The position numbers and the translations under genes are program-made. Positions 950 to 64,000 of a stretch of DNA of 64,000 nucleotides are shown here, piece after piece. The first letter of the stretch is position 1; the number at the start of each line of letters is the position of its first letter. The DNA is from Tubiluchus corallicola. Taxonomy: Eukaryota; Priapulida; Priapulimorpha; Priapulimorphida; Tubiluchidae. Under the pieces are notes generated by a model. It saw nothing but the letters and a program-made list of their open reading frames with translations, searched no databases and was not told where the DNA came from. The stretch lies in assembly GCA_030141605.1 (NCBI GenBank), contig JAQGDQ010000304.1, positions 124,001 through 188,000 on the forward strand. Direction: 5' to 3'.

Positions 950-3814
950 CTTGTAACATGCTGCGATAAGCATTGTCTGTGATGGCATATACATGTGGAG
1001 GCACTTCATGACGCTTCTTGCCTTTGTACAATTCGATGACTTTTTCTGTATAAATCGGCAGCTTTTTGTAAGGATTCACTACTACACAAAACAATCCGGA
1101 GTACGTCTGTAAAATCATAATTAAAATAGAAGCTAAAGAGTGGTGATTAATCATTAAATATAACATACAGCTATCAAACTGTAAAATCCATATTGGTTGA
1201 CAACACTTGGAAAACATTAACAGTCCCAAAATCATGTTCTGCAAAAGAATTTATATTTGATTCCCAGACTCAAATAATACCAAAAAAGTAATCTAAAAGG
1301 TGTTTGCTAACTGTTAAACACTTTAAAAATAAGGCCCCGAATAATGACTATTTCTGTCATTCCTTAGCTAAAGATGAGCAAGAAGGCCGTATATGGCTAA
1401 CATTCAAAATCTTGCCTCTTATACTGTCGATTGGTAACAAATAACACAGCTAACGAAAGATACGGTAACTTGACAAAAAATAATCACTTTTCAGACAGAG
1501 AAGAAACAAAACCTTTCTTAGTTTTACATCTCAAATTTACCACGAACCCTCAGCGGCTCACCCACTATCATGGCCAAAGACGCAAGAGACTAAAAGCCTA
1601 CTTATTATTAATTAGTATCCCCACCCCATTTGAGTGTATATTTGCACATCCATTTGGAGACTTAGTGCATTGTAAAAAAATAGATAGAATAGGATTGACA
1701 AGACCGCCATATGTGATAAGAATTAGGACAGCTCTGGAAAGTTTTAAAAATGAGAAAACAAATCTCTTTAGGGCTTACAATTTTCAAGTTTTTGGAAAAC
1801 TAATCAGAAATTTATACATATAAATTTTTGTGGAGTTTTCATCATTAGTTGGTTGCCAATTCACAAGATTACAACATTCACAGCGTAATTGAGTAACCAC
1901 TGTGGTCTTCAATAAATTACTTGAAGGGTTGATTATTGTAACATTAAATGTCTTGTGATTTTCCATTTTGGGCAAAGTTAAGTTATGAGGTGGCAACAAG
2001 GTTATGTGTTCAACAGCTGCTGTAAACGAACTTTTAAACCCCTAAAAACTACTTAAAAAACCGTTCACAATGGCAGACACAATGAAGTAGGATACAAAAC
2101 AACAGGAACCTTTGACCTAATAATACAAACGAAACAGTTTGAATACAAATCATGGTGCAAATTTAGCAATTTTCTCATGAAAATGAGGACAGGCAGCTAA
2201 AACCCTATTTTTTCAATATGTAGAGAGAGAATCTTATACATCATTAATTTTTTACAGCAATTTGACAACATTACATGGCATATTCTTACATATCTACATA
2301 GGTTTTTTTCTGCTGCCTGTCCTTATTTCCACTTCTTGATAATACATTTATGTTAAATATACAGTGGGAATCATTTATTAGACTCACAGTTAATAGACTC
2401 AGTTGCTTAATTCACTCGAAAATGTCTGGTATGGGATGACCCGATTCATATGTATGTAAAAACTCAAATAATTGACTCAATGTTCTTGCTTCAAGTACTT
2501 TTGTGCATGCAAAAAGAGCTTTTACTGCTTTTATGACATCTTTACATCAATTTTGTGCAAAATAATATATGTAGAAACAATCGTTTGTGTTTCGTTTGTA
2601 AGCAGGTACGTTTATCATGCACTGATAATAGAATACTAGAATACACTGATAATAGATACTAGAATAGCATTTTTGCTTCGAATTTGTCACTTGCTCGTCC
2701 TCTGCAATAAAGCTGTTGCCCAAAAATTCATGGCGGCTAAATGTATGCCCAGCGGGTTTCCTTTGAAGCTCTTCCTGCTTTCCACCAAATGCTTAATCAG
2801 TTAACTGAACTTAGCTGTTATGCCACTGATGCAGTGACAGTAAACTGCCAGTATTCTCTGCAACTTTTCAAGCATAACTATCACAGAGCAACCAAGAGAC
2901 AGAATTTTGAAAAATACAGCATAAGTGCAAAACCATGCATTTAAAGCTCTAGCAGGGCATACCAAGTTGACAAATAAAGAAGACTCGTACTTCTATACTA
3001 GTAAAATTACACCCGCCGGCTAAGCGATTCAATAGATTAATTGGATCAAAACTCGTCCATCCCAAGGCGAGTCTATTAAGCAGCACCTACCTGCATTTGT
3101 ATTTCATCTGTTTTCTTTTATACATATATAGAATTTATATATTCGTTGCATACTTGTCCAATGCTGAAGCTGTTTATAGTGAACAAGTTTAAATGAAATG
3201 AAACAGCTTTGTAGATACAGTACAGTATGAAAATTTATAGCATTTAATTTTCCTACCAGTCGGCATGTTTTCTGACCTACATTCTATCCAAAGTTGTACT
3301 AGCTTCGGGTTGCACAATTTGCATTATCTTAGAAAACTATGGTAACTCATTGGGATAAGTCAAGGTCAAGTTAACAGGGAACAGTTAGGTTACACTAAAT
3401 TGACCAATATTGCTAATCTTCCTTCATTATACTCACAAACCATTCAGTCTATGAACTTACATATATCAGACCAGAATAATATCGGTCTTTAAGATTATGC
3501 AGTACAGATGCTTCATTTAGGCATGTCAATTCAGCCATATCCTCTACTTTAGAAAACTTGGGAGGATTCATTTTCTGAATGTCATCTTTATTAACAAGAT
3601 ATCGTTTTGATGTTTCAATTATTTCTACTTCCAATTCTTCGCCTCGCTCTGCCTTGATACTGGCGGCCACGAATCCATGAGAGTCGTGAGGTACCCAGAC
3701 AAGGCGTTTTGCAGTCCATTCTGCTTGTGCAGCAGGATCATTTATGACTTGCTTATCTACGACCAAGTACTGAAGTTCAGCCATGTTGCTCGTACTTTCC
3801 CTGCGATCCGCCAT
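950..3814 (-). CDS. MYH10: Non-muscle/smooth-type myosin II heavy chain, N-terminal exons (partial)
   Basis: The first two coding exons of a conventional myosin II heavy chain, the actin-based motor of contractile rings and stress fibres. Exon 1 (3814 to 3461, 118 codons) starts with MADRREST and contains the N-terminal SH3-like region ([16 protein letters not shown]) and the strongly conserved [20 protein letters not shown] segment. Exon 2 (1106 to 950, 157 nt, phase 1 end) encodes [19 protein letters not shown] through AYRSMLQ. The exon 1 donor is tat|gtaagt and the exon 2 acceptor is ttttacag|acg, in phase 0. The next expected exon, leading into the P-loop, was not found in 1-949, so the gene continues beyond the left edge. 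A second in-frame ATG lies at 3784. The sequence fits the non-muscle/smooth clade (pro-orthologue of vertebrate MYH9/10/11/14, Drosophila zipper) better than striated muscle myosin. The symbol is approximate. Intron 1 (1107-3460) hosts a pogo/Tigger-like element. Confidence 0.9.
2362..3093. mobile_element. Pogo/Tigger-like DNA transposon, copy 1 (decayed, non-autonomous)
   Basis: A 732-bp element in myosin intron 1. The left end begins CAGTGGGAATCATTTATTAG, followed by GACTCACAGTTAATAGACTC. The right end is the reverse complement of a related sequence (GAGTCTATTAAGCAGCACCT just inside the end). It is flanked by TA on the left (2360-2361) and by CA, a likely mutated TA, on the right. The interior shares recognisable blocks with the copy at 55247-56238, for example the stretch with TTTTACTGCTTTTATG and the stretch with TTTGTAAGCAGGTACRTTTA. 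A short open frame at 2741-2944 has no recognised homology. TA duplication and CAGT-type ends are typical of Tc1/mariner, pogo branch. That family assignment is inference. Confidence 0.75.
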
Positions 3815-5050
3815 CTTAAATTCCACAGGTTTGTACAACTTTTCACATAAAAAATTGACTGATTCAAAATACGTCCCACAATTACAGAAAGTTGTAACCG
3901 TGATAACAAATCGCTGGTAATTGATACTTTGCCGAAAATTGGCAACGAATCATTGATCTGTCTCAATTTTATCAAAGATAAGATCACACGACCGGACCAA
4001 CGAACTAGCGGAAATACACACGTGACCTACATGAAATTCGAAGGGACAAGGGATTTCGGAACTAAGACACCGCTCTCATGAATGTATCTATGACTGCTTT
4101 TTCAATGCGAATTTTCCTCGGGCACTCCAAGAGCTAGAGGTTAGAGGCATCTCATAATTCTAATAGGTAAAGTATAAGTACTGTCTTGATTATTAGGGAC
4201 AGTGCCTGGCTGGCTCTGATTGATCCCTTGCATAGTGTTTTTTCAAGAGAAAGTCCATTTACTTAGCAACAAACGTTATTTTGCAATTACTATTAACGGT
4301 TTAAAAACTTTAAATGACCATCTTACCGCCTGTAATTAATATTGCAAAATAATGTCACTTAGTACCCAAGATTTTAGTAGTGATGTTCTAAATACAACAA
4401 AATATTAAATTCTTACGTCCATTTTTGGTTTATTACACCACTAAATGACTGCTTTAGCTCTGGCTGATCTAGCAGATTTAATTAGCAACATGTGACTAAC
4501 TGATGTCCAGCACTATAACTGTAGGTCTAAGTTGCACAGTAAGTGCAAAGCATCAATTTGAATATATCTTCATAAGCTTGATTCATGTGTGTAAATATGA
4601 TAATTTAATAATAGTGTATACTTAGCAAGCACATTAATGAATACGAATTTTCATAAGCAGAATCTTTTGGGTGTTTGCAGGAACCAGGCATTGCATTGTA
4701 TATCTAACAGTCCTAGCAGATGTAAGCTACTGCCTTACACAAGACCCATTATTTTAGTTTTGCTAAGATGTCTGTGATACATTTATCTAACAAATTTAAT
4801 TTAATTTTATATCCCATGAATTACACTAAAATCGTCACAGAATAAAGGAAGTGTTTGATAAAAATATTCACTGAACAAACTAGTTATGTCCACAAATCAC
4901 TATCGTCACAAGTGTGTGCATTACAATTCTTTTTGCATATAAATGTATAGAAACTAAAACCACATTTCGGCATTAAAAATATTTTTTAATAAATTATCTA
5001 CAACAATATTTACAATAAATGGAGTGAATGGTAGCAATTAACAGGCATAA
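3815..5050. other. Myosin 5' flank and ZNHIT1 3' flank
   Basis: Intergenic stretch upstream of the myosin start and downstream of the ZNHIT1 stop; both genes are on the minus strand. The first 300 bp next to the myosin ATG is less AT-rich than the rest and is the likely promoter/5' UTR. I see no convincing TATA box, and no coding sequence in the remainder. Confidence 0.4.
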
Positions 5051-8000
5051 TCAGGCAGTCCATTTTAAGCACCTGAAAAAAATTATTGTAGTTATCAAAA
5101 ATTAAGAACATAATGTTTATTATTAATCTTATTTTGGGGACTGAAATATAATAGAAAAGGTACAAATATAAAATCTTTGAAGATTTTAAAGACAAATGCC
5201 CATACTAAGTTGACCAATTTTCAAATTAATATTGAACAGAAAAAAGGTGTGCAAATAATAATCACTTTCAAGTAACAACAAGAAAAACTTAAATCGTGGG
5301 TGAAGAGCATTCGTAATTCCATGAGATAAAATTGGCAGTGTATTAGCTGTTTGAAATGGAACCGAAATTCAGTGTATGTGCATCGCTAAATATTTTGAAT
5401 TTGAAAGCAAAAGTGCATTGGATGAAACATGATGGAGTCAGTAATTAGAATAAGAGTAGTGCGTGTACAAATAACAACTGCTGTCCGTGTAATGTCTGCT
5501 ATGCATTTCTCACTCCTATCTCAGGATGGTGCATAATACGAACGACATGCAAGTTGTACAACGGACACACCTGATGAGCTTGTTTCTGTTTGCTTTGGTT
5601 TTTCATAATGCTTAAACAAATTTAGGAAATCTTTTCCCGCTAAAAATTGCTCAACAAATCAGAGTTAGGTTTAGGTACTTGCCATTATGCACCCAGAAAT
5701 GTAATATCAGCAATACAAATACTTTGAGTAGTAGTTCAGTAAAAACCCACTAATGCAAAAGTAATTCAGTATTATGATGAATTGATACAATACACGCTTT
5801 TAAAAAAATGGATCATGTATTTAAGTTGCTATTGCCTGTGTTTTTCCAAAGTATGTTTTTAACTACTGAAGCCTGCCAAGATCATGAATCTCTAATGTAC
5901 TTATATAATTATAAAGTTACCTGGTATCCTGATGCGTACCCAAACACCGGACAGAGCAGTATCTGGCTCCACATGGCACGCACACATAGTTAGATGGAAA
6001 TGTTTGAACAGTTAAGGCAAACAAATGAATTTAATTAGTTAACGAAAAGATACTTAGCAAAATAAAGCAATGAAGCTTTTTTTAAATGACATAAAGACCT
6101 GGAAAACAAACCAAAACGAGTAACTACAAGCAGGCATACAACAAGAAGGTAAAATTCTTGACGACACGGTTGGATACAGTAACGCGTGACAATTTTAAGG
6201 TAAAAATTCTGAAAACCTCTTCTAAAAAAGCATAAAAAATGTGCATACAAAAATTCACAATTCACATTACAACATAATATTAATATCATACCATTAGATC
6301 TTCAAAAGTGTTTTGTCACTTGCCCGACATACTATTTAAAGGTACTTTTAAAGATAAGTGTTAAATTAAAATAAGAAGATTCCAGACATATGAATGATGA
6401 TATGGGAAATAATACATAAGTCAAACATCAACTTAACAAGGCCTAAAATTAATCTGAAAAACTTGTTCTATTATTTCATTGCAGTAAATAACCAATCTTT
6501 GAACAGTATGCTCAATCTAGGCTAACTTAAAGGATATCCACACACAGCACAGAATTTGCGCTCAGGAAATGCAGAAGGTGGAGCCTGTGCTGACAGATAA
6601 TTTGGTTCATCTGAAGCCAGCATTGTCTGCAATAAAAATCTGTTTGCACACTTTATAAATACATATAACTTGTAGATTTGTACTAAACTACCAGACCACT
6701 TTAGTCTACTTTTGTTAGGCATCAAACATAATGTGTATGTTGAAATTGCATTTTAACCCACTGACTGTGTGCAAACAAAAATCAAACTTGCTTGTATTTG
6801 GTACAGTATTTGCACTTGCAATATGTAGTATAAATGCAAGACTGCATTTATTTTCACAAAAGCAGTTTACATTTAAAAACCCAATGGTACTGTTTGTATG
6901 TTCTTTCTATAGACATCAATGTTGACAAAACTTTTTGAGTCACTGACAGAGAAACTATGCAAATGAAGCCTCTGCATGATGCAACATCCACATGCATCAG
7001 GTATACCAACATTAAGCTAATTAAATTTAAACACTCATGAGTTTACTATTAAATTTTGTTTCAGAAAAGCAAATTTGCACAAGGAATAACATTTCAAGCA
7101 ATACTTTACATAAATGCTGTTGAAAATAAATAGACACTTCATTAAGGAAGTACAAAAAGAGCTAAAAATTCATAATAACAGAAACTGAATTCCCCATTTT
7201 TTATGACTGGTGGCTTTAATCCAGGATTTACGAGAATGTAATCCTATCACTATAAAAATATTAAAAGAAATGAGTGCATCTCTAAATTATACTTGATTGC
7301 CAAAGTAATTTTACATATTTTCTAGAGATTACAAACAGGTGGGTATAACTGACCAAGTAAACCAATTTTTTTTCACTCTGGTCTTGAGACTGTCAATCTG
7401 TAAAGCATAAATCAGTTGCTGCTTGTTTAAAAGCAGAAACAATTTTATGAAACACATTTGCAGTGACAGTGGCTGTCGACTTTTCAAATCAATCTTGTTA
7501 ATGCAGCAAACTTCAATACTTTAAAGGCTGTACTGAATTAATCTCAATAAAAAGGAAAGAGCAAATCTTTTACTAGAAGCCTGGAAGGCAAAGTACAATG
7601 TTACGTAGACTGACTTCTATGGATGCAAGGTCCTCAGAAAGAACCAGACAGTCAAAATTAAATTAGATCAAAAGGAAGTGCAACATGATATTAAAAAAAA
7701 GAAATATTGCACAATGCGGAATTCTATTCAAGCTTCTTGTCACAAACGCTACAAACCACATCAATAGCCGCAGTACTATAACAATAGAATACTTACAGCT
7801 TCTTCAAGTAAAGCAGCAAAGTTCTTTCTATATCTTTGTTTAAGCTGCTCCGATCGACTTTTTCTTTTTTTGGTATTAGCTGAAATTGTAATGTTGACCA
7901 TAAGCCTTACAGAAATTACTCACATGCTTGAAAACAACTATATTATATCTTAATTTTCCCTTAACTATAAACACACACATCATTGCACTTTTTGGCAAGT

Positions 8001-8607: not shown

Positions 8608-8695
<88 letters not shown>

Positions 8696-11660
8696 TGTGT
8701 GTGTGCGTGTGTGTGTGTTCTGGATATCCTATAAGTATTAAGTTTATTAAAAATACTTGTAACCCAAAGGTTAAATTACATTATATTAAAACAACTTTAC
8801 ATAACATTAATTAAAATAGACTGAAGTGTAAATTACATTACACTTAAAAAACAATAATTTACGTTAAGATTAATCTTATTCAAATCCATTATTATAATAT
8901 CTTGTATCAGTGTATACAGTAGTAATGAACTTACTGATAATTAAAAAGTACATGTGGTACAAAACTACTTTTAAAACGTTTAGGACAGCAAAGAGGTAAA
9001 GGGTACATGAGTTGTTTACGAAGATTGTGCTTACGGGGGTTGAGTTGAGGTAATAAATAATAGAGTCTACTGTCTTGATTTTGGATTGACTTGAAAAATT
9101 TTCAGCAAAGGCCATTTCTATGTGGAGATAACTATTCAATTTTTGATAGCTGCAAAGCATTTACGTAAGGTGTACAGAGGAAAATTAATTTTAAAATATG
9201 TTTTTGAATTGACTCTAGTAACTTTGTCTGTTCTAATGTTAAAGAAGTATGCCATGCAGGACAAGCATCTTTCAATGCTGGTCTTATTAAAGTACAATAA
9301 ACAGTAACCACATCTTTCTGATATGATTAAAAGGTGCGGAGGTTTATAAGTCAACTAAAGCTGTTGAATGTATTCAAAATATAGCTTCTAGGGAGTCTAA
9401 GGTGAGAACTCAGACCAGCTCTGAGAGGTCGGATCTACAGCTCAAATGTAAGCAGGACGTTCTGGATTCCTTACAGAAAAGGGCCGGCGTTTATAAGTCA
9501 ACTCCAGCTGTTGAATGTAGTCAAACGCTGTGTGTTGAACAACGAATGTGTTGAATGGATAAGTGTCTCTGATTGTCTGCTACTAGGGTGAGAACTCAGG
9601 CCAACTCTGCTAGGTTGGACCTACAGCTCAAATGTAAGCAGGAGGTTCTATGTTCAAATCCAGGTTGGTCCACAATTTTTCAGTGCCACTTTCTTTAATT
9701 AATTATCCATTAAGTAGACAAACTTATGTTAAGCGTGATGTCTTTCTTAATGTCTATAAAAGACACTTACAGTCTGGCAGACTTTCCTCAAATTTTGGTG
9801 CTTTCTTATGCATACTTAAATTAGCATGAGGATCATCTTGAAAGTTATCTCTCTCTAAAGCTTCAAGCTGTTTTCTGGTGCGACGATGTCGGGATGCTTC
9901 GTCGAGAATTCTACGCTGCAAGCCATCTTTGATGCGACCTGAAATTATACGTGTACTTTTCTTTACATTAGATTGTATTTCATTTTGTAACGGCACTAAT
10001 ACTATAACATGTCAGTATGGACGAATACCTTTTTCAACAGTTTGTGCCAGTTTGGCATTATTCATTATATAGGTTACAAGTGAGTGAGTCAAATTCTGGA
10101 CTAACTAGCTGCTATAAATGTTACTTCAAGTTTGCTTTCGAGCTCACATGTGTAATTATGACTTTTTAGTGACCCTTAATTGCCATAATGGCATAAGTTT
10201 ACCAGAAATATCATGATGTTTGCTATGCAGGTGATAATGTTTAGCGATTGGAGTCATACAGAAACAAAACAAACTTTACGTTTTTAAGTAATGGTAGGAT
10301 TATTATATAGGCCTTACTTTCAATGTGCGGTCACCTACTGGCAAAATAGTTTGTTAATCTCTCTCTCTCTTCAGCAATGTCATTCATAAAGTAGTATAAT
10401 AAACTATTGTTGTTTGACTTTTGGTAATTTTATAATCTAACATGTACAATAAGTTGTTAAAAATTTTCAATTATAATAGAAAACTTTACATAATTATAGC
10501 CAATAGCCCACATTGTTACTAAAAGCCAAATGACTATTGCTATAGCACTGCATATATTGACACAATTCAGTCAAATTTGAGTGGAAAAAATAACCAAAAA
10601 TAAGTGAAATCCGTGAGAATGAATTTCGACATCAAGGCTACGAGCATTTATTTTATGCCACGCAACATTTATTTTAACCAGTCAATAGATCATTTTTATG
10701 CAAACCATCAATTAAGCCAGCAAAATGACAACCCTGTCGGTTTTGCTAAACTCATTACATTGTATTTATTTTTGTAAATTCTTTATACAAACAACACAAT
10801 AACTATAATTCAAAGTTTTATGCAGCGTTTTAATCTATGTATAGAGCTTCACTGAAAAATATTTTTTGTACAAACTAAGATGCATTTCACTGAATTTCCA
10901 AAACTAGCTAAAACTCGAAAAACTTGTTAATTTCCAAGAATTACCCTAGTGGTTACCTGTGGGAGATTATATTGTTGCCTACTAGACCCCATAGTTCGGA
11001 GTTGGTATCTCTCTGGAATCAACCTCATTTAGCTGTTTTGTATATCTACTTAAGAAAAGTTTTCAACTCAGTCATATTATGTCGTCACATTTGTATAACA
11101 GGTTACACCAAAACTGTAGGTAACCGAGCGGTTGGTAACCAAGGCAAATATTATAAACAGGATTTGGATTATGGATTTTTTTTTAAACTCTAGGCATGAA
11201 AAATTAAACTGTGACAAAAAGAGACTTTGTGGTAAACAGTTACAAATAGCAAATGCAGCGCCTTGTTTTCACACTGTACTATATCAATGTGTTGATATAC
11301 CTAAATAATTATGTGATATTCAAAATCCTTTTTTACATACTGATTCATTCCATGTGAGCAAACATATGGGATTTTTACTATTATTTCAAACTTGTTTGTA
11401 AACATAATGAGTAGGCATATATAATTTTAGAAGACAAGGTAGTTTTTAGTTATGATTATTTTTTCTTTGACTACGAGTGCACTTGAAATGTATTTCAGCA
11501 ATAAACGAAATCGTATTGAATTGATCATCTACGATCTAAGCTACTATAAACTCACCTACGAACAGTTCAAACGTAAAGGAAATTTACCTATCCACTTAGA
11601 AAACTAAAAAGATCTTCAGAAAGCTACGAAGGCCGTACCTGACTCTCGTTTAATATCCAT
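5051..11660 (-). CDS. ZNHIT1: Zinc finger HIT domain-containing protein 1 (SRCAP/SWR1 complex subunit)
   Basis: ZNHIT1 (p18Hamlet, yeast Vps71/Swc6) is a subunit of the nuclear SRCAP/SWR1 remodeller that deposits H2A.Z. Six coding exons give 154 aa, the human length as recalled: 11660-11639, 9938-9771, 7879-7797, 6626-6538, 6001-5921 and 5072-5051. The N-terminal region carries RRILDEASRHRRTRKQLEAL and DNFQDDPHANL, matching the conserved family signature. The C-terminal HIT zinc finger is rebuilt across exons 4-6: FCAVCG, FPSNYVCVPCGARYC, CLGTHQDTRCLKW. All eight Cys/His-type ligand positions appear present. All joins are in phase. Exon 1 (22 nt, MDIKRES plus one base) is the least certain; it was chosen because its phase and donor fit. 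Intron 4 (6537-6002) is not GT-AG: it starts ATATCCTTT and ends AAC with a CCTTAAC branch site, i.e. a U12-type AT-AC intron. Intron 2 holds a SINE pair and a (TG)n tract. Confidence 0.92.
6002..6537 (-). other. ZNHIT1: U12-type AT-AC intron in ZNHIT1
   Basis: Read on the minus strand, exon 4 ends TGTGTGG at 6538. The intron starts ATATCCTTTAAG at 6537, matching the U12 5' splice consensus perfectly over nine positions. Near the 3' end the sequence reads TTGCCTTAACTGTTCAAAC, after which exon 5 starts ATTTCCATC at 6001. The branch-site core CCTTAAC puts the branch adenosine (6012) 10 nt from the 3' end, within the range required for minor-spliceosome introns. Removing exactly this intron gives CAVCGFPSNYVCVPCGARYC, which follows the conserved family sequence. 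No in-frame GT-AG alternative exists because there is no AG close to exon 5. Confidence 0.9.
8608..8718. repeat. (TG)n microsatellite
   Basis: About 110 bp of nearly uninterrupted TG dinucleotides with a few GGTG and GC interruptions, in ZNHIT1 intron 2. Open frames across it that read Val/Cys or Cys/Val repeats are artefacts. Confidence 0.98.
9332..9480 (+). repeat. tRNA-like SINE, copy A (tandem)
   Basis: This unit begins GGTGCGGAGGTTTATAAGTC and contains the blocks GTGAGAACTCAG, CTACAGCTCAAATGTAAGCA and GGACGTTCTGGATTCC. It is followed directly by a second, diverged copy that shares all these blocks. The B-box is degraded in this copy. It lies in ZNHIT1 intron 2. SINE assignment is inference, from the B-box-like sequence in copy B. 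Confidence 0.6.
9481..9680 (+). repeat. tRNA-like SINE, copy B (tandem)
   Basis: Starts GGGCCGGCGTTTATAAGTCA and repeats the block order of copy A. It carries an extra ~45 bp internally and a well-formed pol III B-box-like GTTCAAATCC at 9652-9661, followed by CAGGTTGGTCCAC, like the T-arm and acceptor of a tRNA. No intact tRNA cloverleaf was found, so I call it a tRNA-derived SINE and not a tRNA gene. Confidence 0.6.
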
Positions 11661-20742: not shown

Positions 20743-22203
20743 TCAGCGAATTTTGCACTTTTTTGCAGGAGATTCTGAATATTTCTCCTCGTGAATATCT
20801 GTAGTGTTTTGTTCACAGTCCTTATGTTCACAATTTTTCTTTCTACTAGTTTTTGTTACACTATCGCTTGCAAACAACAGTGATTCTGACAGCTGGAACG
20901 AGACACAAAACATGTCTTTGTTTGGTGCAACTTTCCTAACAAAGTGAATACTAAGACCTGTAAAGGCATAACCTTTCAGAGATTTAGTGACTAACTGCTC
21001 AATTTCATTTTCTGGTGAATGAGCATCTTTGAGAAATATGTAGCAGTATACAAAAGGCAACTCTTTACCATTTAAAATATTTGCCACTTCTGCTACATCA
21101 AGGTCATCAAGGTCATGAAGTAAACCTACAAAAGCATCTAAAAATGTTATTGCTGTTGCTGGTAAATTCATGACAATGTGAAAGTGACCATTGAAAGTTG
21201 TATCTCTCAGATGCTCTAACATGTGAGTTTTAATCACACTTCTAATAAAATTCCTGCCATCTAAATTAAATGCACTTAATGTTTTTACTTTATTCAGATG
21301 AGCATTTTCTACCAACCATTTGTATGCTTCAACATTTAGATCATTAGCCATGACAGTCACTCCTTTCTTAGCAGCAGGTACAGCAAAAGGACCAATTCCA
21401 GCAAAAACATCATACAGCACATCACCGGTTTTCAATAAGCTGGTAACTCGTTGGTGTTCCGTATCAAGCCGGGGGTTCCAGTACACCTTGGAAAAATCCA
21501 TTTTGTAGCTGCAACCATGTTCTTTAACTGTAGTGATGAAATCCTCTTCGCCAGCAATTACTTCCATACAAAAGTTTCTATAAGTGTTGTCGATGTTTGT
21601 TGTCTTATTCACCACAGTTCTTACTCCTAAGTGTTTATCAAGTAACACTTGACCTATTAGGCTTTTGTAATCTGCTAGATGTTCTTTGAGGTTCAGGTGC
21701 AGAATATGACCAACACGACTGTACCCTGACACTATATTAGCATCTGTAGGAAGTACAGCTTTAAATATTTTGTCAAATGTCCAGTTGTCATACCCTAGTT
21801 CTAGATGACGGCTACCAAAGCCACTTGCATTTATTTTACATTTGTCTATTAGCTGAATTGAAATGTTTTCTGGAAGATTATCTAAACTTTTATACCAAGG
21901 CTTGAGTAGGATCTTTTTTATGTGGTGATCTTCACAGGTAATTACAGGTGCTACATTTGGAATATGCAGATAAAATGGTTTCAGGATTTTCAGTGCTTGT
22001 TTCAGTAAACTTACATTCACATCTAGCGTAGGTATGTCATAATCTCGACAAAACGTGTTTCTGTCAAGAATCTTCATTCCTCGCACACATTCTGGTGGCG
22101 ATAATTCTTCCATTGCTTGCATGTGGCAGTTTCTTGGCACTGTAAGCAGCAAAATGTGTCTAATAGTTGGTGGTCTGAAACCTGAACGATACAAAGCACT
22201 CAT
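20743..22203 (-). CDS. TRMT5: tRNA (guanine-37-N1)-methyltransferase
   Basis: TRMT5 transfers a methyl group from SAM to N1 of G37 in tRNA, next to the anticodon, preventing +1 frameshifting; in animals it serves the cytosol/nucleus and mitochondria. The whole 486-aa protein (human about 509) is in one exon. Visible family blocks: RGMKILDRNTF (~41-51); YSRVGHILHLNLKEH (~161-175); SLIGQVLLDKH (~181-191); NIDNTYRNFCMEV (~203-215); FSKVYWNPRLDTEHQR (~237-252); the SAM-binding loop DVFAGIGPFAVPAAKKG (~265-281); NDLN (287-290); NLDGR (313-317); and the catalytic-region NLPATA (346-351). The start at 22203 gives a basic, hydrophobic N-terminus (SGFRPP, IRHILLL) compatible with mitochondrial import. 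The ATG lies 6 nt after a ctttctatag acceptor-like sequence, so a 5' UTR splice or trans-splice is possible. Confidence 0.96.
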   Translation of the reverse strand: MSALYRSGFRPPTIRHILLLTVPRNCHMQAMEELSPPECVRGMKILDRNTFCRDYDIPTLDVNVSLLKQALKILKPFYLHIPNVAPVITCEDHHIKKILLKPWYKSLDNLPENISIQLIDKCKINASGFGSRHLELGYDNWTFDKIFKAVLPTDANIVSGYSRVGHILHLNLKEHLADYKSLIGQVLLDKHLGVRTVVNKTTNIDNTYRNFCMEVIAGEEDFITTVKEHGCSYKMDFSKVYWNPRLDTEHQRVTSLLKTGDVLYDVFAGIGPFAVPAAKKGVTVMANDLNVEAYKWLVENAHLNKVKTLSAFNLDGRNFIRSVIKTHMLEHLRDTTFNGHFHIVMNLPATAITFLDAFVGLLHDLDDLDVAEVANILNGKELPFVYCYIFLKDAHSPENEIEQLVTKSLKGYAFTGLSIHFVRKVAPNKDMFCVSFQLSESLLFASDSVTKTSRKKNCEHKDCEQNTTDIHEEKYSESPAKKCKIR

Positions 22204-33800: not shown

Positions 33801-36800
33801 ACAACTGAGTGATGAAGTTAATGAGAAGGTAGATGTTAAGTTTAATCCATTTTTGAAAATTTGTGGGCTGTTTTTTGCTGTTCCATCTTGCTGTCCCATT
33901 TAGCAATCTGCCAACTGTTAATGACATTAAATACAAAACATGGTCTGACATTTGTGGCCTCATATCAACTAATTTTCAGTTTTGCTCATTAGCATTAAAA
34001 ATTCACGGTGCAGTGTTTCCAGTGCGACGTATTTCGGCAGCGGATACAGTAATTCCTGCTTCCTCGTCATCATCACTGCAGTCATGCAAAGTTGTAAAAA
34101 GTGCTTAGAACAAAGATACTGATCTAGCTTAAGTTACAAAGTAGGACATTTGTGTAGTCTATGTCACAATTTCGTTGCCTTCACTGTGTGCGAGGTGGAT
34201 TTATAAAGCGAAATTTCAATTTAATAAACTGTGGATTTTACTAGATTAAAGTATTATACAGTTGAGTTCCAGCAGTGGTCCCCACTATATGCAGCTGGAT
34301 TTATTAAGCGGATTCTACTGTATTGAAGATGCTAAGTCATTCACACCCATAGTGTCGGGTTTAAACAAAAGCTGCTTCAAGTCAGGCTACATGCATCTAT
34401 CATTGTACAACACATTATACTCACATAAGCTAGCTTCTTCAGCATACGTGACAGCATTTGAAAGTGTAACGAACTAAAGCTATGAATGTGTCTTGCAAAT
34501 TGAGTTTCTTTTAGTTGCTCGAAAAATTAAGTGGTATGTTCAACATTTACGGATGGCAATTCAGTTTTGGTGATCTATAAAGCCAAAAGATTCTTAAATA
34601 TTTTGCTGATAACTACAAAAATACTAGTAAATGTGTTGTTGTCAGGAAATGATCTTTTGTCAGTTTACTTGTAGACTGGAGTGATCAAAGCAAATTTTCA
34701 GTTGGAAAAGTGACGAGATTTTAGGAAACAAATGTAAAGTATTTTTTCTGCCTGCACTATTTATGTACTTCATTCAATTTTTAGTTAGATAAAGTGCATG
34801 AACTTGCTGAAGGAATAGGCAAGACACTTGCAAAGGCAGAGCAGTTGGGGGCTGATGGAAATGTTGAAGAGTCTTTAACTTTGCTGGAGGAGGTTGAGCG
34901 TCTTAAAAAAGCAAAGCATGATGCGGAGGTAAATTGTTTCATTTATTTCTTGATGAACACAGGTGGGAAAGACCTGATCTGTTTTCTGTGCTATTTCCCA
35001 CCTGTGCTGGCTAATATGTTTTTATACATAGTGGTATTGTGTATAATGTTTTGGATCACAACTTTTCTATTTCTAACAGGACTGCTATTTTATTGTTATT
35101 GCTTTTCATTCACTAGGGCTTCTTTAAAATTTAAACAGTATACGTTGTTTAATTAAAGTCTAGTGTATGCTGTAATAAATAATAACTATCCAGTTGAAGA
35201 AGTTTATAATTCTATTTCCATTGTGTAAATTAACAGATGGAGTATCGTAACTCGATGCCTTCTTCTACCTATCAGCAGCAGAAGCTACGTGTTTGTGAAG
35301 TTTGTTCTGCTTACCTTGGAATTCATGATAACGATCGACGACTTGCTGACCATTTTGGAGGAAAGCTGCACCTTGGTTTTATTGACATACGCGAAAAACT
35401 GGAGAAACTGAAGGTAATTGAAAAGCACATGTATGATTGTTAATTATGCTATTTGTATACCTTGCAGGTGTTCCAAATGTACGCACAAAAGATAATTGTT
35501 AACGAGTATTATATACATTTAATTTCGTGTCACAGTTTTCTGTTCGGTTTACTTAGGGCAGTGGTGCAATTATTACCCTAAATGCAATTTGTCGGAATTT
35601 TCTACGTAGCGAATCATCCAGCATTTTGACAGTTTTAGTTGTAGTAATTTGGTTTTGTCACAGGACTTAAAGTTTTATACACATTATGTTTTAGGTAGTC
35701 GTAGAGGAAAAGAAATTGAAAAGGGAAGCGGAACGAGAGCAGCGCATGGCAGAACGTGAAAAAGAGTGGCAGGAAAGAGAAAAAGAAAGAGAAAAGAGTA
35801 GAGAAGATTATGATCGGGAAAGAGAGAGGGCACGTAATCGCAGAAGGTATTCGCATTGTACTGGTCAATGAACTATGTAAATTGTAGTTACTAGCACCAT
35901 TTATATAATGTGGTGCAAAAATGTGCCTATGTTTTTTTACAATATTGTAAAAAGAAAATAATGGAATCGCCAATGACTTTGTCTTGTTGGAATTTGTATT
36001 TTTAACATCCAGAAGCTTCAGCCATAACTTAAAAGCCTCATAAACTCTAAATTTTTAACTTTCATAGCCAAAAGTTAATGTACTGCAATACCGCAATATG
36101 GAATTTTTACATTTTAGGGTGTTCACTTCTACTGTTATTGCAGTCTAAACTGCGGTGCATTTTTACTGCACCACCCGATATATCATAAAAGATAATGTGA
36201 TTTTGTTCTTTGGCAGATACTTATCAGTCGAATTACACATATATTTATCGGTTGCCCAATGTATATCATTCTTGGTATCGTCAACTTGAAACTGAAAAAC
36301 TGTAGGGCAGGAACTTATGGAAACCACTTATTTTTGTTTTATTCAGAAATGTATGTTAAATTCTGCTAATGCACAGTTTGTTTCTAAAACAACCAACATC
36401 CACAAGTAGCTATAATTGTTTTTTTGATATGTGATTGTACCTGTTAGTTTTTCTATTTATCATTGAGTGACAGATTTTCAAAGCCAAACTGTTTTCATTA
36501 ATGATGAAAATGTTTGTGATTGTGTATAACTGAAGATTGAAATAGGTGATACATGGTATATTGTTGAATTGTTTTGTTTTCTTTTTAGACGAAGCAGAAG
36601 TAGAAGTAGAGAACGACGACGCAGGTAGAATAAATTTTGTCATTTTGTAGTTTGTAAATTAGTAGTTACAAAGCAATAATTTTGAACTTAATAACTGTTT
36701 TAACAAGGTTCGTTAGTACACTGCATGAAAAATAATGTTAATTGTACTGATATGCAATAGTGTTGGTATATGCATATATACGAGTAATTGTTGTGTAGCT

Positions 36801-57974: not shown

Positions 57975-59215
57975 CTATAAAATCTTTGTTTTTGCCACCA
58001 TTTTGTCTAGTATCATTATGTACCTCTGTAAAAATAGTTTACTGTACCCTGATTTGAGTATATTACTGAATTCTTTTAATTTGCGATTCAGACACATTTT
58101 ATTAATTTCATCTACACCATATGTTTGAAATCTTGGAAAATTTGCCCCTTTTGTATAAAGCTGTTTCACTTCTTCACGAGATTGGTAACTATACACATTT
58201 TTAAATAATGTATTCCTTGGCTTTATGTGTGTCATTAATAGATATTTGTGAAGAATTATTGATGCTTTAATTAGCAGTGGGTATATGCCTAATTCAGCTT
58301 TACACGCTATACTGGAAGCACTTCCCCAGACACGTAAAACCCATTTTGAGAATGTGTTCTGAACATACTCGAATGGAAAAAGATTCCACATTTTTAAAAG
58401 TTTTTCTGAGTTGTCAGTGTTTATGTTATTTAGTTTGGTGATAAAAGACTGACACCAAATTTCTCACCAATAAAGTGCTACTGGTGAGAATAGGATTCAA
58501 ATAAGTAAAGAAGTATATTTACATCAAAACTGTATTGAAATATTAGAGATTTTAATTTAATTTATACCCTAATGCTTTGGTTTTTCATTGTGTCACAGTG
58601 CATTGTGTATGAACCATTGTTTGTAAAATACATTCCTAGGTATTTGATATGTTTTTCTGTCTTTAATAATGTATTGCCAAGATAAAAGTGATTATTCAAT
58701 GTTTTACTGGATGGTTTGTTTCCAAAGGTAACAGCTTTGGTTTTGGTATGATTAACTTGTAATGAGTTCTGTTTTGCATACATAGCTAGTTTGTTGATTT
58801 TATTTTGTAGTCCTTCTTTAGATGTATTGAAAATAACTAGGTTGTCAGCATACTGTAAGCATTTAATGATTTTGTCATGCAAAATCGGGGAATCCCCATC
58901 AAGTAAAAAAACAGGAAGACCATTTACATATACATTAAACAGAGTTGGAATAAGAGTGACACCTTGCCTAATGCCAGTTTCAGTTTTAAACTGTGGTTTG
59001 ACTTTTGTGGTTTGACAATTATTACACATATCTTTAATGATACGTTGGATATATTCATCAGTTCTGCTAGTCATTCATTAATGATGGAATTAAAAACTTT
59101 TGCCAAGACATGAAGTTACTGAGATTCCATGGTAATTTTTAGGGCCACCTAGTGTTCCTCCTTTAAATATGGGACTTAAAATGCTCTTAGACCAGTTTTC
59201 TGGATATTTCATCTG
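57975..59215 (-). pseudogene. Broken LINE reverse transcriptase (non-LTR retrotransposon)
   Basis: Three successive pieces of one LINE ORF2 are visible on the minus strand. At ~59205-59095 is the RT start block YPENWSKSILSPIFKGGTLG plus NYHGISVTSCLGKSF, ending in stops. At 59074-58562 is the palm: TETGIRQGVTLIPTLFNVYV, then the active-site box YADN (58852-58841) where YADD is expected, then HIKYLGMYFTNNG. At 58391-57975 is the post-RT C-terminal region. Stops separate the pieces and the second catalytic Asp is replaced by Asn, so it is inactive. The endonuclease part is not visible. The LINE clade is not determined. Confidence 0.85.
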
Positions 59216-62338: not shown

Positions 62339-64000
62339 GTTAGGTGGGTTTTTAAACAAGGCAAAAACACCACACTACTTTTGCCACTGCACTGTAAGCA
62401 ACAACAAAAACTGTCTTGATAGGATACACTTTTCGAAAAAGTAATCTGTATACTGCAGCTGTAACTAACTACAACACGTCCACATGCATGTTTTTGGTAC
62501 TTGGCTTCTGCACCCCATAGCAGGTTATATGTACTGACAGGTGCAAAGCAATTTGATGTATTTATGTGTTGCTATAGAAAACAACCTGTAATTAACTGCA
62601 ATAATTATGGTAACAATTACCAATGAGTATTTATAGTTGTGACAAAAAACATTCAAAATTGTTTATCAGAACATTATTTTATTCAGCTGCATTACATCCC
62701 AGTTCAATGATCGGTTTGCAAGTATCAAAATTTTTCGAAAGTTTGTGTGTATGATGTTGTTCACATCCAGATATGTCTATCAGACAAAAATGTAACAATT
62801 ATATAAATATATTAACATAGATGACCAATCCTCTTACAGTAACAAAAAATAGACAATTTTGAAAAGGTGTGACCCTTTTTTCTTAAACACATATTTCAAG
62901 CACTGGGTTACAAAGAACTAATATTATATTATAATGATTAACAATATGAAGTAACCAATAATAGATGACTAAGACAATTAATATGTGACACCGGTGAAGA
63001 GTAACTAGACCATTTGTAATCTTCTGTTAGCCGGCATACAGTGCTCAGCACTCACAGATCAGTAAACAATTCTTGCTTACACTTGATTGCATTATTTGTC
63101 TTTCTTTGTGTAATGTCCAGACCTGATCACAATTCAAGGATACAGTCCACATCGCGTCAGAGTTTTGGAGGAAAATACATATATGCACAGGAAAAACTGC
63201 TTATATTATCAGTGGATATAATGTTTATTACTATTTCAAATTTAAACAAGAATTATTGATAAGAAATCTAGTTGAAAAGAAATGACCACTGTTGAATGGC
63301 ATCATTGATTGGTTATAAGCAGTTGATATAGATATGTTTTACATACACCAATTATGTATTAGCATATACATGAGAATTCCAAACTATAAAATTGTTATAA
63401 CACCATGTTCAATGTACAATTTTTAGAGTATGTTGCTTGTTTAATAGCAATTTAGAAGAGCAATGTCAAAATGGCTACTAGAAACCAACTTGCGAATGCA
63501 AATGTGGCAAATAGTTTTTTGAATTCGAGAAACCTGCAGTTCCAAACAAAATTCATGGTTACAAAATGTTATAGTTTGAAAAATTGCCATATTTCAATTA
63601 CAGGGCCAAATATAATAAATGTCAACACTCTGTGCCATGCAGGCTGGGCCTATGAACTTTTCAACAGCCATATTTCTTGCTGCCAAGGCCATCACCATAT
63701 GTGCTATTTATATCCAGTAAAAACAGATCAGCCTTGGCTGTATTATGTCATTTGTGCATCTGGTTAGAATTGTGCACCCATGCTTAAGTCAGTAACATTC
63801 TACACAAAAGTGCACTATATGTGCATGGTGCACACATGTTAGTTTTGTTCTGGGCAGAAAACAATACTGGTTAACAAACTGCTCACAGTTTTAAAGCATG
63901 AATTGCTGTATGTACGGAAGACCATTAAATAGAACTAACTGTCAAGAATAAAACAAATTCCTAAAACACTAGTACAGTAGGGCTGGCTCTCCAGCGATAC
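62339..64000. other. Right-hand end, no confirmed gene
   Basis: AT-rich. A 98-codon ATG frame at 63471-63767 (starting MATRNQLANANVANSFLNSR, good Kozak-like aaaATGG) has no recognised domain and is probably chance. At 63973 the window ends in CAGTAGGGCTGGCTCTCCAG preceded by TA, possibly the left end of another Tigger-like element cut by the window edge. Confidence 0.3.

Follow-up and report, generated by a model that had tools for sequence, protein, structure and literature searches.

The locus raises two questions: how the coding sequence of a HIT zinc finger split between two exons is joined, and which spliceosome would remove the intron between them. ZNHIT1 is a chromatin-remodelling protein, and the SRCAP complex loads H2A.Z. 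On the minus strand of the 64-kb stretch of DNA analysed here (the window), six exons join in frame to give a protein of 154 aa followed by a stop codon (Table 1). This protein matches human ZNHIT1 almost end to end, and its residues 4-153 align to a chain of a solved structure (8x15_L, Zinc finger HIT domain-containing protein 1; E=1.1e-57). The C-terminal zf-HIT domain occupies residues 114-141 (39.4 bits vs a cut-off of 24.7), and the alignment to the human protein has no gaps at the junction of exons 4 and 5. Judged by full-length homology and this zinc finger, the six-exon gene is ZNHIT1. Going by the genes present, its source is probably an animal. Exon 1, the weakest of the six, is predicted solely from its reading frame, its GT-AG junction and a weak resemblance at the N terminus. 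Introns 1, 2, 3 and 5 are GT-AG introns of 1700, 1891, 1170 and 848 nt, and intron 4 is the sole AT-AC intron of the five.

Table 1. Coordinates of ZNHIT1 and its intron 4 in the window, and of the minor-spliceosome snRNA genes in the genome.
Feature	Location	Strand	Basis or detail
ZNHIT1 exon 1 (start codon)	11639..11660	-	22 nt, 7 codons; predicted
ZNHIT1 exon 2	9771..9938	-	frame and homology
ZNHIT1 exon 3	7797..7879	-	frame and homology
ZNHIT1 exon 4, first part of HIT zinc finger (...FCAVCG)	6538..6626	-	frame and homology
ZNHIT1 intron 4, predicted U12-type AT-AC, phase 2, 536 nt	6002..6537	-	splice-site anatomy and frame
5' splice site ATATCCTTT	6529..6537	-	motif search; complementary to U11 and U6atac of the genome
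Branch-point motif CCTTAAC	6011..6017	-	motif search; CCTT-(A)-ACT complementary to U12 of the genome
Intron 4 3' end AAC (terminal AC)	6002..6004	-	sequence
ZNHIT1 exon 5, remainder of HIT zinc finger (FPSNYVC...)	5921..6001	-	frame and homology
ZNHIT1 exon 6 (CLKWTA, stop)	5051..5072	-	frame
U12	G000:C246		105.9 bits vs gathering score 53
U11	C1937		101.7 bits vs gathering score 39
U6atac	C1219		112.4 bits vs gathering score 33
Second U6atac-like sequence	G000:C1024:835508-835631	-	74 bits vs gathering score 33; conserved positions changed
U4atac	C1248		86 bits vs gathering score 53

Several other features were observed in the window. Close to ZNHIT1 and on the same strand lies an exon for the N-terminal part of a heavy chain of myosin II (3449-3949), closest to non-muscle and smooth-muscle chains. 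Intron 2 of ZNHIT1 contains a long TG repeat (window about 8608-8719, plus strand) and, at about 9400-9690 (minus strand), two stretches that look similar by eye, each with CTGCTTACATTTGAGCTGTAG and GAGTTCTCACC; their sequence suggests a repeat element. A fragment of an RVT_1 reverse transcriptase (58562-59074, minus strand; 55.9 bits) is presumably the remnant of a retrotransposon. An open frame of 486 aa (20743-22203, minus strand) carries a TRM5/TYW2 methyltransferase domain, and we take it to be probably TRMT5.

The consensus of the U12-type class is an RTATCCTT donor and a TTCCTTRAY branch site. Intron 4 starts with ATATCCTTTAAG and finishes with ...TTTGCCTTAACTGTTCAAAC, giving the termini of the AT-AC subtype. 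Its 5' splice site, ATATCCTTT at 6537, matches the RTATCCTT pattern, and its branch site, TGCCTTAAC, lies near the form TTCCTTRAY within the expected distance of ∼10-13 nt from the 3' end. The CCTTAAC core occupies intron positions 521-527 of 536, which puts its first and second A 11 and 10 nt from the end, respectively. According to the available part of PMC3584512, the optimal distance from the branch site to the 3' splice site is 11-13 nt, and either A is usable. No polypyrimidine tract precedes the 3' splice site, as by eye TGTTCAAAC alone follows the branch motif, and there is no AG close to the 3' end, the last one in the intron stopping 51 nt short of it. Four details count against the assignment: the branch site has one mismatch to TTCCTTRAC, its second A lies nearer to the 3' end than the optimum, a second branch-like site (TTCGTTAAC) starts at 6046, and a T-rich stretch lies directly upstream of the branch motif. 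The preliminary description of this DNA had proposed a U12-type AT-AC intron in ZNHIT1 with this donor, CCTTAAC and an AAC end; all of these are present, the gene is borne out by the structural match, and the sequence agrees with the class. The branch distance of 10 nt given there is correct for the second A of CCTTAAC.

Is this junction forced by the protein? Single-intron donor-acceptor pairs at least 30 nt apart were enumerated within 6626-5921. Three cut pairs restore KFCAVCGFPSNYVCVPCG letter for letter, because neighbouring junction bases match, and the sole pair with recognised termini is 6537/6002. Hence the claim that this excision alone rebuilds the finger (CGFPSNYVC) holds among single-intron junctions with recognised termini. 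In a wider enumeration, GT-AG, GC-AG and AT-AC termini were admitted, KFCAVC and YVCVPCGARYC were kept, and up to 60 residues were allowed between them. Two open pairs were found, both AT-AC and both using donor 6537. With the alternative acceptor, the intron would finish at 6011, at the branch motif itself, and add residues in the finger.

These enumerations bear on the possibility that the real junction is GT-AG, or that the exon layout differs (e.g. an extra small exon), with the U12-type motifs present by coincidence. In favour of coincidence, donor and branch motifs on their own are not rare in 64 kb, since 200 dinucleotide shuffles of the minus strand of the window gave expectations per strand of 0.57 for ATATCCTTT and 3.48 for CCTTAAC; the enumerations, too, covered one-intron solutions only. 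Against coincidence, no GT-AG or GC-AG pair left the frame open across the two parts of the zinc finger with up to 60 residues between them (single-intron pairs, 6626-5921), and we regard such a layout as extremely improbable. The minus strand of the window contains a single CCTTAAC, two copies of ATATCCTTT (6537 and 22480) and 18 looser branch-like sites that differ from TTCCTTRAC at no more than one position. The improbable part is the joint placement of both motifs at the frame-restoring junction: post hoc arithmetic from the shuffle rates, assuming independence and about 15 acceptable branch positions, puts this at roughly 7e-9.

The shorter pattern RTATCCTT was found four times on the minus strand of the window (63143, 47751, 22480 and 6537) and not at all on the plus strand. 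The donors at 63143, 47751 and 22480 were taken as chance matches: in the 200 nt upstream of each, read in three frames, no convincing exon ended at the donor. One frame before 22480 was open for ∼37 codons. A downstream branch-site scan of these alternative donors covered 63143.

Which machinery would recognise intron 4 was addressed by searching the genome (343.5 Mb, 2344 contigs) with Rfam models and their gathering scores. U11, U12, U4atac and U6atac are all present and align full-length to their models (Table 1). The absence of minor-spliceosome snRNAs had been named as grounds for rejecting the preliminary reading, which this result upholds. A second U6atac-like sequence, with altered conserved positions, is perhaps a pseudogene or variant copy. 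Inside the 64-kb window itself, an Rfam scan at gathering thresholds found no RNA genes. LUC7 is a U1 snRNP-associated family, and a LUC7 family-like exon was seen in the window at 34785-35156 (plus strand; 33.9 bits vs a cut-off of 33).

The snRNA genes can also be compared with the splice sites of intron 4. The donor TCCTTT is the exact complement of a U6atac segment, and CCTTT complements the 5' end of U11, with six pairs if one G-U pair is counted. CCTTACT, with one A of the branch motif taken as bulged (CCTT-(A)-ACT), complements a segment of U12 that we take to be its branch-site-binding segment, and we likewise assume the roles of the U11 and U6atac segments. Under the established mechanism of the minor spliceosome, U11 would pair with the 5' splice site (UCCUUU), U12 would pair with the branch motif with one A bulged out, and U6atac would then take the place of U11 at UCCUUU; the anatomy, frame and snRNA genes on which these steps build were observed directly.

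The AT-AC termini alone do not settle the class, according to the available part of PMC2831892, and intron 4 might therefore be excised by the major (U2) spliceosome, as are some sodium-channel introns. The AT-AC introns of sodium channels described there have G at +5, whereas intron 4 has C at +5 within ATATCCTTT, and the presence of a U12-type branch motif also argues against U2 removal, which makes this route very improbable. Because anatomy, frame, snRNA genes and their pairing agree, ZNHIT1 intron 4 is almost certainly, on sequence grounds, a U12-type (minor) spliceosomal intron of the AT-AC subtype.

Reading through the donor without splicing gives CGYPLS-stop, as the preliminary description had pointed out. 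If intron 4 were retained, the protein would stop after CGYPLS at residue 125 rather than 154 (counted from exon lengths), and most of the finger would be lost. In agreement, the C-terminal part of the read-through product (61 aa) had no Pfam match at E 0.001, and hence no zf-HIT match. This early termination and the missing domain would suit a regulatory switch, compatible with the U12-type assignment rather than exclusive of it, in which failed minor splicing yields ZNHIT1 without a whole finger or leads to transcript decay. However, any retained intron containing a stop would act likewise, and such regulation is speculative and very unlikely. That splicing of intron 4 limits the amount of intact ZNHIT1 finger, and so ties H2A.Z loading by SRCAP to minor-spliceosome activity here, is equally a matter of speculation and very unlikely.

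A search of article text, with supplementary tables and databases outside its scope, found no paper linking ZNHIT1 to minor introns among the matches listed. One paper, PMC5460035, is reportedly on ZNHIT2 and the U5 snRNP. The main text of a minor-intron survey, as far as available, has no occurrence of ZNHIT (PMC10639083), and the single ZNHIT1 passage in the available text of PMC12701963 is about splicing factors during spermatogenesis and does not address the class of introns.

Intron 4 resembles known minor introns in several respects. AT-AC introns had been called the rarest spliceosomal class, which is overstated: as a subtype, they account for 26% of U12-type introns in human, 47% in fly and 8.6% in honeybee (PMC7367187, Table 2). 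Minor introns are biased away from phase 0 in the portions available of PMC7367187 and PMC10639083, and the phase 2 position of intron 4 fits this bias. The fly orthologues of PHB2, STX6 and KCMF1 have AT-AC introns with U12-type human counterparts (PMC2831892, available part); intron 4 shares their subtype and class but differs in its host gene, ZNHIT1. In the nematode Trichinella spiralis, U12-type AT-AC introns of the form ATATCCTTTC...TTCCTTAAC...AC are described in the accessible part of PMC2846911. The ATATCCTTTC donor and the CCTTAAC branch core are common to these introns and intron 4, whereas the full branch site is TTCCTTAAC in T. spiralis and TGCCTTAAC in ZNHIT1, the nematode motif lies farther from the intron end, and the host genes differ. 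Certain annotation pipelines have historically left out minor introns (PMC10639083, available text), which backs the earlier worry about misannotation in general, not for ZNHIT1 in particular. The same source regards most minor introns as old and recent gains as few, and intron 4 is therefore probably ancestral.

U12-type AT-AC introns are well described, and ZNHIT1 intron 4 is a fresh and typical instance, ordinary in kind, that leaves knowledge of splicing itself unchanged. Here the homology of the protein, the anatomy of the splice sites and the snRNA genes of the genome itself agree in one clean case, which can be used to check how minor introns are annotated in this genome. Should orthologous introns be present in other phyla, intron 4 would add to the old minor introns a further one whose host is a conserved chromatin gene.
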